NCBI GenBank assembly: GCA_008638215.1 | Contig: VTPN01000008.1 | Span: 1-34,724, forward strand | DNA from: Pelagibacteraceae bacterium | GTDB lineage: Bacteria; Pseudomonadota; Alphaproteobacteria; HIMB59 | Length of the DNA stretch: 34,724 nt | Reading direction: 5' to 3' | Shown: positions 30,801 to 34,724 of the stretch, in pieces | Layout of the letters: each line of letters opens with the position of its first letter | Numbering within the stretch: position 1 is the first letter of the stretch | Translations under genes and position numbers: made by a program | The notes under the pieces: model-generated | What the model was told of the DNA's origin: nothing | Database searches by the model: none | What the model saw: the letters and a program-made list of their open reading frames with translations, nothing else

Positions 30801-30943
30801 TTTCATTGATTGATGCGTTTTATAAATAATTACTCCTGTGGAAAAAATGTGAATTAATATTCTTGATTTAGATACTTTTGAATCATCAATAGGGGAGAAT
30901 TTGTTTACAATTAAATCAGGTTAAACAATTATTATTGTTTTCA
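30801..30943. other. Gene-free part of the sdhC/dctQ intergenic region
   Basis: This is the gene-free stretch between the sdhC promoter and the structured leader ahead of dctQ. I see no coding frame with support. The right end carries a possible rightward promoter: TTTACA (30904-30909), 17 nt, AATTAT (30927-30932), or the better -10 hexamer TATTAT (30930-30935). The implied start is at about 30939-30943, immediately before the predicted RNA fold. The rest is AT-rich without obvious symmetry. Confidence 0.4.
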
Positions 30944-31003
30944 AGGGCACTGAATCTCACCCCGCATGAGTAAGGCTTTATTTTTTAATAAAGTTGGTGC
31001 CCT
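30944..31003 (+). ncRNA. Predicted three-way-junction RNA in the TRAP operon leader
   Basis: The closing helix P1 pairs AGGGCAC (30944-30950) with GTGCCCT (30997-31003). On the plus strand it extends by U-G, G-U and A-U pairs (30951-30953 with 30994-30996). P2 pairs CTCA (30956-30959) with TGAG (30967-30970) around the loop CCCCGCA. P3 pairs CTTTATT (30976-30982) with AATAAAG (30987-30993) around TTTT. P3 abuts P1, so the two should stack, with a UAAGG joining strand (30971-30975). The extra wobble pairs exist only in plus-strand RNA, and a plausible promoter ends just before P1. No U-tract terminator follows. I do not recognise it as a known riboswitch class; a cis-regulatory leader for dctQM is the working idea. 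Confidence 0.5.
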
Positions 31004-31040
31004 AACCTACTTTCTTAGTTTAATTCCCATATCCAAGAGT

Positions 31041-31046
31041 TATAAT
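31041..31046 (+). promoter_or_regulatory. -10 element directly ahead of dctQ
   Basis: A consensus TATAAT lies 8 nt before the dctQ ATG, predicting a transcript that begins about 2 nt before the start codon. No Shine-Dalgarno sequence is present at normal distance and the -35 region is poor. It could be a second, leaderless promoter in addition to the one that would produce the structured leader. Confidence 0.45.
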
Positions 31047-31054
31047 CCTCGGCT

Positions 31055-31570
31055 ATGTTGGCTTTGAGTCTCATATCCAGAACTATCGACCGAATAAATA
31101 CTTTCGTGGGTTATCTATGTGGATTATTTGCTTTTTTGATGGTGCTTTTAGTTTTCACGGTAGTTGTCATGCGGTATGGGTTTAGTGTTGGATTTATATG
31201 GATGCAAGAGGCTTATGTTTGGCTTCATAGTTTTATTTTTATGCTTGGAAGTGGCTTTACCTACCTGGCAAACGAACATGTCCGAATTGATGTTTTTTAT
31301 CGTGATGCATCAGAAAAATATAAAGCCACTGTTGACCTCATAGGAAATATTTTTCTTCTTGCTCCTTTTCTATATATCATTTGGCAATACAGCTATCCCT
31401 TTGTGTATCGATCTTTTTTAATGAATGAAGTTTCTAGAGAGGCCGGAGGCATGCCTGCTCTCTTTGTTTTAAAAAGTGCTATTTTATGGTTTTGTTTGGT
31501 TTTATTTTTACAATTAATTTCGAATGTTTCTAAGTCCATTCAAGTTTTACTAAGTAAGGAAAATTCATGA
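31055..31570 (+). CDS. dctQ: TRAP transporter small permease (DctQ)
   Basis: A 171-aa inner-membrane protein with four hydrophobic segments, the small subunit of a tripartite sodium-driven TRAP importer. Typical DctQ features are the early MRYGFSVGFIWMQEAYVWLHSFIFMLG and, in the second half, EHVRIDVFYRD. It overlaps dctM by 4 bp (ATGA), so the two are coupled. The periplasmic partner is probably the DctP-type protein at 33965-34724, encoded on the other strand beyond a phosphodiesterase gene. Confidence 0.92.
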   Translation: MLALSLISRTIDRINTFVGYLCGLFAFLMVLLVFTVVVMRYGFSVGFIWMQEAYVWLHSFIFMLGSGFTYLANEHVRIDVFYRDASEKYKATVDLIGNIFLLAPFLYIIWQYSYPFVYRSFLMNEVSREAGGMPALFVLKSAILWFCLVLFLQLISNVSKSIQVLLSKENS

Positions 31571-32940
31571 CGCCAGAAATTCTCTCTATCATCATGTTTT
31601 TTACAACTCTTGGGCTATTGTTATTTGGTTTCCCAGTCGCGTTTACGCTAGCTGGTTCTGCCCTAATCTTTGGTTTTATTGGAGAAGCCATGGAGATTTT
31701 CAACTTCCGCATGATTGGTTTTTTCCCCCAAAGGATTTTTGGAACCATGATCAATGAGCCTTTAGTGGCTGTCCCTTTATTTATCTTCATGGGTATTATG
31801 TTGGAAAAAACCAAAATTGCCGCTGGTTTATTACAATCAATTGGTGAGCTCTTTGGAACCACGAAGGGAGGCCTAGGCATTGGGGTGGTTTTAGTTGGTA
31901 TGTTGCTGGCTGCATCCACGGGAATTGTCGGAGCAACTGTTGTGACGATGGGGATGTTGTCGTTACCCTCCATGATCAAGGCAGGATACGATCAAAAAAT
32001 TGCTACCGGCACTATTTGTGCAGCGGGTACTTTAGGTCAAATCATTCCTCCTTCCATTGTTTTAGTTCTTCTGGCAACTATTTTACAAGGTGCCAATGAA
32101 GAAGCCGCATTACTTCGCGGAGAATTGGCTCCCGATCCTGTCACCGCCATTGATTTATTTGCAGGAGCGTTAATGCCTGGATTGATGTTAGTCGTAATGT
32201 TTGTAATATTTATCTATTTCTACGCTCGGATTTTTCCAACCGCTTGCCCTCCAATAGAGACATCAAAATCAAGAAAACAAATTTACTTGGATGCCTTTAA
32301 ATCTGTTTTTCCACCGATCATTTTAATTGTATTGGTGTTGGGGTCCATTTTATTTGGGGTTGCTACCCCCACAGAGTCTGCTTCTGTCGGCGCGATTGGC
32401 GCTGCCATTATTGCCTATACTAAAGGAGAATTAACTTTTCAAAACCTCAAAGAAACTTCACTTGGTACGGTTAAATTAAGCTCATTTGTTTTTGTCATTT
32501 TAATCGGCGCTTCTATGTTCTCCCTTGTCTTTCGAGGATTTGGTGGGGATGAAATGATTGAACATTTTTTAAGCAATCTTCCAGGAGGTCTGTATGGTGC
32601 CTTGTTTGTTGTTATGATTGCTATTTTTCTTTTAGGCTTTTTCTTAGACTATATAGAAATTATTTTTGTTATTGTTCCCTTAGTTGGCCCTATTCTTATC
32701 GCCTATGGTGCTGATCCCTTATGGTTAGGAATATTGATTTCCTTAAATCTTCAAACTAGTTTTTTAACTCCACCTTTTGGATTTTCTCTCTTCTTTTTAA
32801 GAGGGGTGGCGCCAAAGGAAATTCAAACAAAAAATATTTATCGTGGGGTCATCCCCTATATTGGGATACAAGTTCTGGCAATTTTTATTGTGGGATTTTT
32901 TCCTAGTATTGCCACGTGGCTACCGAGACTTTTGTTTTAA
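31567..32940 (+). CDS. dctM: TRAP transporter large permease (DctM)
   Basis: A 457-aa inner-membrane protein with about twelve transmembrane or re-entrant segments, the sodium-coupled transport subunit of a TRAP system. FGFPVAFTLAG near the N terminus, PLFIFMGIMLE, ASTGIVGATVVTMG, GTLGQIIPPSI and FLTPPFGFSLFFLRGVAP are DctM hallmarks. Length is within the family range (about 425-480). The gene ends 16 nt before the convergent phosphodiesterase gene, with no strong terminator between. Substrate is set by the DctP protein. Confidence 0.95.
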   Translation: MTPEILSIIMFFTTLGLLLFGFPVAFTLAGSALIFGFIGEAMEIFNFRMIGFFPQRIFGTMINEPLVAVPLFIFMGIMLEKTKIAAGLLQSIGELFGTTKGGLGIGVVLVGMLLAASTGIVGATVVTMGMLSLPSMIKAGYDQKIATGTICAAGTLGQIIPPSIVLVLLATILQGANEEAALLRGELAPDPVTAIDLFAGALMPGLMLVVMFVIFIYFYARIFPTACPPIETSKSRKQIYLDAFKSVFPPIILIVLVLGSILFGVATPTESASVGAIGAAIIAYTKGELTFQNLKETSLGTVKLSSFVFVILIGASMFSLVFRGFGGDEMIEHFLSNLPGGLYGALFVVMIAIFLLGFFLDYIEIIFVIVPLVGPILIAYGADPLWLGILISLNLQTSFLTPPFGFSLFFLRGVAPKEIQTKNIYRGVIPYIGIQVLAIFIVGFFPSIATWLPRLLF

Positions 32941-32956: not shown

Positions 32957-33880
32957 TTAAAACCAAGAAATATTATTTTTCTCACAAAGATTTTTAAGTC
33001 TCAAGGGATAATCCGTCATAATTCCATCCACGCCATATTCAATCATTTTTAACATGTCGTCTTCATCGTTAACGGTCCAAACATTGACGGTAAGATTTTC
33101 TTCGTGAGAGATATCTATCATCTTTTTGGAAATATCTCGGTAATAAGGGTGCCAAGCTCGACCTCCCAATGAAGCAATTAGTCTTGGGAGTTCGACAGCA
33201 TTTTTAAGGGGCATGAAGTCCATCCAAGGGGATTGGTCATAAATAGTTCCACTTATTTTTGAACCTGATTGTTGCTGGTAAGTTAAATATGCTCTTGGGG
33301 TTTTAGGGCTTTGATCTTTTATTTCTCTTAAAACTCTCCAGTCAAAAGATGAGTATATAATTTTATCTTTTAATACAGAATTATTTACAATATCGAGTAC
33401 TAACCTAACCATTTCTTCAGGCAAGGGTGTCAAATTTTCTTGGGCAGGTGTTGATTTTATTTCTAGATTTATAATTAAATTTTCAGTTTGGTTTTTAGCA
33501 GTTAAATTTAAAAGATCTTCAAGTTTAGGAATTTTTTGATTTGGCAGACTTTTTTGATTAGTAAAATTCCTACCATATTTTGATAATTTATTTAAGGTTC
33601 CAACATCATACTTTAATAATTCTTTATAAGTTAAATCAAATATCTTGATGTTCTCATCCGTAATCCATTTTCCATTGTCGTCTCGAGTAAAGCTGGGGTC
33701 TAATTTAAAGTCATGAGTGATGACGGGTATCAAGTCTTTGGAAATTAAAATGTCAGTTTCATACGCACTAATTAAATGATCGAAAAGATATTGAAAGCTG
33801 TCTAAGGTATTTTCAGGTAAATCACCTCTGGCCCCTCGATGGCCATAAATTTTAATATGATTTGGCTTAGTTAAATTCAT
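32957..33880 (-). CDS. Glycerophosphodiester phosphodiesterase (UgpQ type)
   Basis: A 307-aa GDPD-family enzyme that hydrolyses glycerophosphodiesters to sn-glycerol-3-phosphate and an alcohol. His14 and Arg15 (GHRGARG), Glu23 (PENT), Glu41 and Asp43 (ETDI) and His56 (THD) are the expected catalytic and metal-binding residues. WTVNDEDDM and GVDGIMTDYP close the TIM barrel. No signal peptide is seen, so it should act in the cytoplasm as UgpQ does. Its product would feed GlpD (16007-17443). It lies between the dctM and dctP genes, on the dctP strand and downstream of it. Confidence 0.93.
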   Translation of the reverse strand: MNLTKPNHIKIYGHRGARGDLPENTLDSFQYLFDHLISAYETDILISKDLIPVITHDFKLDPSFTRDDNGKWITDENIKIFDLTYKELLKYDVGTLNKLSKYGRNFTNQKSLPNQKIPKLEDLLNLTAKNQTENLIINLEIKSTPAQENLTPLPEEMVRLVLDIVNNSVLKDKIIYSSFDWRVLREIKDQSPKTPRAYLTYQQQSGSKISGTIYDQSPWMDFMPLKNAVELPRLIASLGGRAWHPYYRDISKKMIDISHEENLTVNVWTVNDEDDMLKMIEYGVDGIMTDYPLRLKNLCEKNNISWF

Positions 33881-33964: not shown

Positions 33965-34724
33965 TTAAGATGATGGATATGGGAAAGGTAAGCTTCGAGC
34001 TCTTAAATATTCTTTCTCCGATACACCCGTCCATCTTAAAATAGAGGATCTAAAGTTCACAATGTGAGAGAAAAGTTCTTGTGATATAGGATCTTGGCTA
34101 GCTATATCAGCTACAACTTCACCTGCTCTTTGGCCCAGGGCGTTCATTACTTCATCTGGAACCTGTCTCATTTGAACATTGTGTTCATTGATTAGCTTTT
34201 GGTATGAACTGTCGTTCACTGCTTGGAAATGAGAGAGAACTTCAAGATTTACAGCCTTTGAAGCAACTGTGATCATTTCTCTGGTGGCATCATCAAGTTT
34301 TTCCCATTCAAACATATCAATGGAACAATCTAAGATTGTGGCAGGTTCGTGCCAACCTGGGTTATAGTAGTATTTTGCTGCTTGATACAGACCAGCACCT
34401 AAGTCAGCGGCCGGGCCAATCCACTCTGTGGCATCGATCGCACCTGAAGCAAGGGCAGGGAGCACATCAGAACCCGCTAGAAGAACGGTTTGCGCGCCGA
34501 AAGACTTTAATACTTCCCCACCTAAACCTGGCATTCTAATTTTGAGTCCATCAAAATCAGAGATGGCATTAATTTCTTTGTTATACCATCCGCCCATTTG
34601 GTTTCCTGTATTTCCTAAAGGTAAAAATTTAACGCCAACTGCGTTGTAGGCTTTATCGGCTGCTTCAATGCCGCCACCGTAATAGCACCATGCATTTTGC
34701 TCTTGGGCTGTCAAACCGAATGGC
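33965..34724 (-). CDS. TRAP transporter substrate-binding protein, TakP-like (5' end outside window)
   Basis: The C-terminal 253 residues of a periplasmic DctP-family binding protein; the frame runs off the right edge, preceded in-window by PFGLTAQEQNAW, a typical interior segment, so signal peptide and start are missing. GLKIRMPGLGGE carries the conserved Arg that binds the carboxylate of the ligand, EWIGP contacts the ligand or metal, and YYNPGWHEPATI matches the TakP (alpha-keto acid) branch. The partner is probably DctQM at 31055-32940. A 2-oxo or hydroxy acid is a reasonable ligand guess and would suit the adjacent TCA genes, but it is unproven. Confidence 0.92.
   Translation of the reverse strand, partial: PFGLTAQEQNAWCYYGGGIEAADKAYNAVGVKFLPLGNTGNQMGGWYNKEINAISDFDGLKIRMPGLGGEVLKSFGAQTVLLAGSDVLPALASGAIDATEWIGPAADLGAGLYQAAKYYYNPGWHEPATILDCSIDMFEWEKLDDATREMITVASKAVNLEVLSHFQAVNDSSYQKLINEHNVQMRQVPDEVMNALGQRAGEVVADIASQDPISQELFSHIVNFRSSILRWTGVSEKEYLRARSLPFPYPSS

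Follow-up and report, generated by a model that had tools for sequence, protein, structure and literature searches.

The window analysed here is a stretch of 34,724 nt from a 1.23-Mb genome (G000) of the marine alphaproteobacterial genus HIMB59. Near its right-hand end lie two genes for the membrane subunits of a TRAP transporter, both on the plus strand: dctQ, the small permease (31055–31570; PF04290, E 6e-16), and dctM, the large permease (31567–32940; PF06808, E 4e-76). Upstream of them stands the divergent sdhC, sdh and mdh genes are among the neighbours, and between sdhC and dctQ there is a structured RNA. All loci examined share this arrangement, the divergent sdhC being followed by the RNA, dctQ and dctM, and the RNA always lies on the same strand as dctQM. 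Further downstream, a glycerophosphodiester phosphodiesterase gene (32957–33880) separates dctM from dctP; it is kept at this position in some relatives and missing in others (e.g. L097, L111, L122). A DctP-like gene (33965–34714) follows on the opposite strand and is cut by the contig end. Among proteins of solved structure, its product is closest to TRAP solute receptors, some of them of the keto-acid and some of the sorbitol/mannitol type. HIMB59/AEGEAN-169 are widespread ocean heterotrophs with genomes of about 1.4 Mb and very short intergenic spacers (PMC10734472). Given such short spacers in streamlined genomes, a strongly conserved 92-nt RNA in a 300-bp gap is likely to be important to its host; and as strains of the group, HIMB59 and LSUCC0245, are in culture (PMC10308909), the transcript and its partner are open to direct testing.

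The RNA as a whole occupies 92 nt of the plus strand (30918–31009), an extent drawn from 25 distinct homologous elements and their covariation. An outer helix, P0, pairs AGGUUA (30918–30923) with UAACCU (31003–31008; located by comparison of relatives) and encloses a hairpin, Pa (30924–30939; AACAAU-UAUU-AUUGUU), found in the same place with another sequence in relatives, together with a three-way junction in which P1 carries P2 and P3. P1 is formed by GGGCACU (30945–30951) and GGUGCCC (30996–31002); the arms of P2 (30956–30959 and 30967–30970) close the loop CCCCGCA (30960–30966); and the P3 hairpin (30974–30995; arms 30974–30982 and 30987–30995) varies in length and loop. The joining strand J1/2 (GAAU), P2 (CUCA/UGAG) and the P2 loop make up a core (30952–30970) that is near-invariant across the 25 distinct elements and reads, almost without variation across homologues, GAAUCUCA-CCCCGCA-UGAG. 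An earlier note, made from the letters of the window, had placed a three-way junction at 30944–31003: its P1, P2 and P3 lie where it put them, nested inside the larger RNA, but its boundaries were too short, P0 and Pa extending the element to 30918–31009.

Folding energy gives a first view of the element. The 60-nt segment originally proposed has a z-score of -2.6 on the plus strand and -3.2 on the minus strand, and the full 92 nt of the window reach -3.4; plus-strand values for the full element across relatives run from -3.4 to -4.9, and for nearly all of the 25 distinct elements the minimum-energy fold takes the P0/Pa/P1(P2,P3) form. As the single-sequence scores are moderate and similar on both strands, a single sequence can establish neither the fold nor its strand, and the modest single-sequence score is what speaks for a chance fold or a short coding region. 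Comparison of homologues argues otherwise. Covariation in P1, P2 and P3 was tested on 13 representative sequences against 500 shuffles: 93.2% of the cells of these helices are paired, versus 35–47% when the alignment is slid, seven pairs are altered on both sides (three in P1, four in P3), and the covariation score exceeds that of every shuffle. For P0, most relatives carry AGGUCG/CGACCU, so that AGGUUA/UAACCU in the window represents two further pairs altered on both sides, and L050 has a U-G variant. P0, P1 and P3 therefore carry compensatory changes; the pairs of P2 are invariant in the covariation alignment, and their pairing is without covariation support. A chance fold is refuted by this covariation, and a coding region by P3 lengths that differ by non-multiples of three, leaving this explanation with practically no probability. 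An ORF from the AUG in P2 was likewise rejected, its reading frame not being conserved. From this comparison of sequences, the element is almost certainly a real RNA family.

The strand is assigned by the same alignment. Among 25 wobble-type cells, 24 are G-U and one is A-C when read on the plus strand, and the P3 loop in L032 and L034 reads GCAA or GAAA on that strand; both point to a plus-strand RNA. The opposite reading, which would place the structure on the minus strand as part of the sdhC leader or take it for an inverted repeat at the DNA level, can draw on the equally good fold of the minus strand in the single sequence and on the nearness of the divergent sdhC. It is largely refuted by the wobble asymmetry, the GCAA/GAAA loops appear on the plus strand only, and a plus-strand promoter (below) fits P0 exactly, so that we regard it as very improbable. 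The main proposal of the earlier note, a conserved, structured plus-strand RNA 5' of dctQM, is thus upheld, and the compensatory changes it had sought among homologous dctQ upstream regions are present in P1 and P3.

A covariance model (R1) was searched across 52 genomes of the genus. It recovered a single copy per genome in 42 of them and no copy in any other genus of the same order. A dctM orthologue is present in 43 of the 52, including all 42 that bear the RNA; the sole genome with dctM and without the RNA is G007, in which the dctQ match starts at contig base 20, and the RNA is missing there because the contig begins too close to dctQ to contain it. The nine remaining genomes, all incomplete assemblies, have neither RNA nor dctM. 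In the sister family, DctQ is about 55–59% identical, and dctQM (L035–L042) is preceded by a different gene across a gap of about 50–60 bases that holds no such RNA. The end of that upstream gene resembles parC, and as sister-family dctQM follows this parC-like end rather than lying beside sdhC, the locus appears to have been rearranged between the families. Class and phylum samples yielded no credible copy outside the genus, with one weak match each, both taken as chance: L076 lies within DNA that reads as coding, and L175 in GC-rich DNA, inside long open frames. Scanning 84,980 species for a 17-mer returned the HIMB59 loci and about 30 others, against a chance expectation of about 30; the others were rejected on covariance-model scores of 16–29 bits, versus 71–85 for true copies. 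In IMG/VR, eight pattern matches were all at chance level and no DctQ relative was found.

The flanks of the RNA bear directly on how it might be expressed. A conserved box, TACAAT (30906–30911, plus strand), occupies positions -12 to -7 relative to the start of P0: across 32 distinct upstream regions aligned on that base, which are related so that the counts are non-independent events, T is found in 29 at -12, A in all 32 at -11, A in 28 at -8 and T in 30 at -7. The spacing of this box suggests that transcription starts on the first P0 base, and the structured RNA would then have its own, putatively sigma-70-type, promoter. The earlier note had chosen TATTAT (30930–30935) as the -10 element, which overlaps the Pa loop, and had consequently put the transcript start at P1, about 26 nt away from the position to which the conserved box points. 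A promoter found by scanner, TTTACA-17-AATTAT, was rejected for lack of conservation. Behind the RNA lies a second -10 box, TATAAT (31041–31046, plus strand), which is conserved as TATAAT or TATACT 32–36 nt past the end of P0 in 32 of 32 distinct, and again related, sequences. From its position, the mRNA is predicted to begin no more than about three bases from the dctQ ATG (31055), and hence to be nearly leaderless. Across the G030 genome, the leaderless -10 signature shows only a slight, non-decisive excess near -12 to -14. No convincing -35 was found at either promoter, that of dctQM being weak, and the 46 nt ahead of dctQ contain no Shine-Dalgarno sequence. The spacer between the RNA and the dctQM box is rich in U and poor in G (49% T, 7% G), with no terminator-like hairpin after the RNA and no conserved intrinsic terminator.

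An mRNA from this second promoter would exclude the RNA. The location proposed in the earlier note, on the 5' side of dctQM, holds; the role it suggested, a leader of the TRAP operon, is doubtful given the separate -10 box that dctQM possesses in all 32 distinct sequences. This explanation posits a protein-binding or ligand-sensing cis-acting leader on a long dctQM transcript that begins at the upstream promoter, in which the RNA alters read-through into, or translation of, dctQM and the internal promoter supplies a basal level. Several observations favour it: in each of the genomes examined the RNA adjoins dctQM and shares its strand, dctM is present in all 42 RNA-bearing genomes (the G007 exception being a contig edge), an invariant core with variable peripheral helices is aptamer-like, and the nearby substrate-binding gene resembles keto-acid binders. 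Adjacency to dctQM is not independent evidence, however, because synteny with sdhC is equally fixed. Against a cis leader stand the conserved -10 of dctQM, which separates the RNA from the start codon, the lack of a terminator, of a Shine-Dalgarno trap or of any pairing of the element with dctQ conserved among relatives, and the restriction to one gene context, with sister-family dctQM lacking the RNA. We consider a cis leader the main rival explanation, to be taken seriously though less likely than not.

A special case of the cis leader would be a riboswitch of a new class that senses a 2-oxo acid or an intermediate of the TCA cycle and controls the importer of that compound. The likeness of the nearby DctP to keto-acid-binding TRAP receptors makes a 2-oxo acid the first candidate ligand; a TRAP receptor that binds alpha-keto acids is the subject of one report (PMC1839085). 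The sdh/mdh neighbours fit such a role, as do the invariant junction and loop; three-way-junction riboswitch aptamers of the purine, TPP and glycine types likewise combine invariant joining and loop bases with a variable outer helix. If true, a switch for such an acid, placed between sdh and importer genes, would coordinate uptake in streamlined ocean heterotrophs. The element differs from those aptamers in lacking both an Rfam riboswitch match and a recognisable expression platform: neither a terminator/antiterminator nor sequestration of a ribosome-binding site was found at the locus, and no Rfam riboswitch matched above chance even at E values up to 10. It is also confined to a single locus per genome and to one genus, ahead of genes with their own promoter. 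Promoter and missing platform together speak against an attenuator or riboswitch of the classical type, and this explanation we judge unlikely.

With regard to known RNAs more widely, the window has no Rfam match at gathering thresholds, and the best relaxed matches (E up to 10), JA04 at 17.4 bits (gathering 81) and a partial Na+ riboswitch at 13.5 bits (gathering 40.5), are at chance level; the earlier note had likewise left the element unassigned to a riboswitch class. Identity with tmRNA or SRP RNA was rejected, both being found at other genome positions. Identity with 6S RNA (RF00013), of which neither G030 nor G000 yielded a match, was also rejected, as the fold is a branched junction rather than a long hairpin with a central bubble. 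Candidate RNAs of Pelagibacter, namely the rpsL motif and the SAR11_0636 element (PMC2704228), offer a closer parallel: they too are three-stem junctions restricted to a marine alphaproteobacterial lineage and were found by comparative genomics. They belong to other genes and taxa, and are set apart here on those grounds and on the Rfam scan, which gave no match to the element. Term searches in the main texts of papers on Pelagibacter RNAs, on 104 motifs and on HIMB59 did not bring the element to light, and literature on TRAP/dctQ riboswitches or HIMB59 small RNAs yielded nothing matching it. The element is an undescribed, lineage-specific RNA family of a familiar sort, with no match in Rfam.

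The separate dctQM promoter, the missing expression platform and a parallel with the small SRP RNA lead us to prefer to a classical dctQM leader, with roughly even confidence, an RNA specific to HIMB59 that would be transcribed from its own sigma-70-type promoter and act on its own as a small RNA. The SRP RNA of HIMB59 genomes (RF00169) is about 95 nt long and likewise has its own -10-like box and a terminal closing helix; its sequence and fold are unrelated to those of the element, and it lies elsewhere in the genome. In four genomes (L176–L179) a few bases separate the end of this closing helix from an ATG, with no U-run and no evident terminator, and the ORF directly after it reads like dnaX. 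Transcription of the element would start at the first base of P0, and by analogy P0 would hold its ends together without an evident terminator, as the terminal helix does in SRP RNA. P0, P1, Pa and P3 would serve as scaffold, presenting the invariant GAAU and the C-rich P2 loop as a putative recognition site for a protein, RNA or ligand. In favour of a stand-alone RNA we count the covariation and strand evidence, the -10 that fits the start of P0, the single copy at one place per genome, the absence of a terminator-like site and sister-family dctQM without the RNA; against it, the lack of a conserved terminator and a position that is always immediately ahead of dctQM and on its strand, which a cis leader would predict as well. 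Hfq (PF17209) was detected in five controls and not found in G030 (99% complete) or G000, which makes an Hfq-dependent antisense mode unlikely. Inspection by eye of TGCGGGG occurrences near gene starts in 419 kb of G030 revealed no convincing target, and pairing of the CCCCGCA loop with CAUGCGG inside dctQ was rejected, being present in the window only and missing in relatives.

In divergent members of the genus (L027, L032, L034), where the elements measure 130–134 nt, P0 and the core are retained and Pa is enlarged to a long, branched arm; of the two hairpins within this arm, one is capped by a G(C/U)GCAACC loop that is conserved. Upstream of the RNA promoter, a TTTTGAATCA-like stretch recurs at about -45 to -36 from P0 (about 30877–30886 in the window) in L003, L005, L014, L021 and L052, and is possibly a regulator site or a piece of the sdhC promoter.
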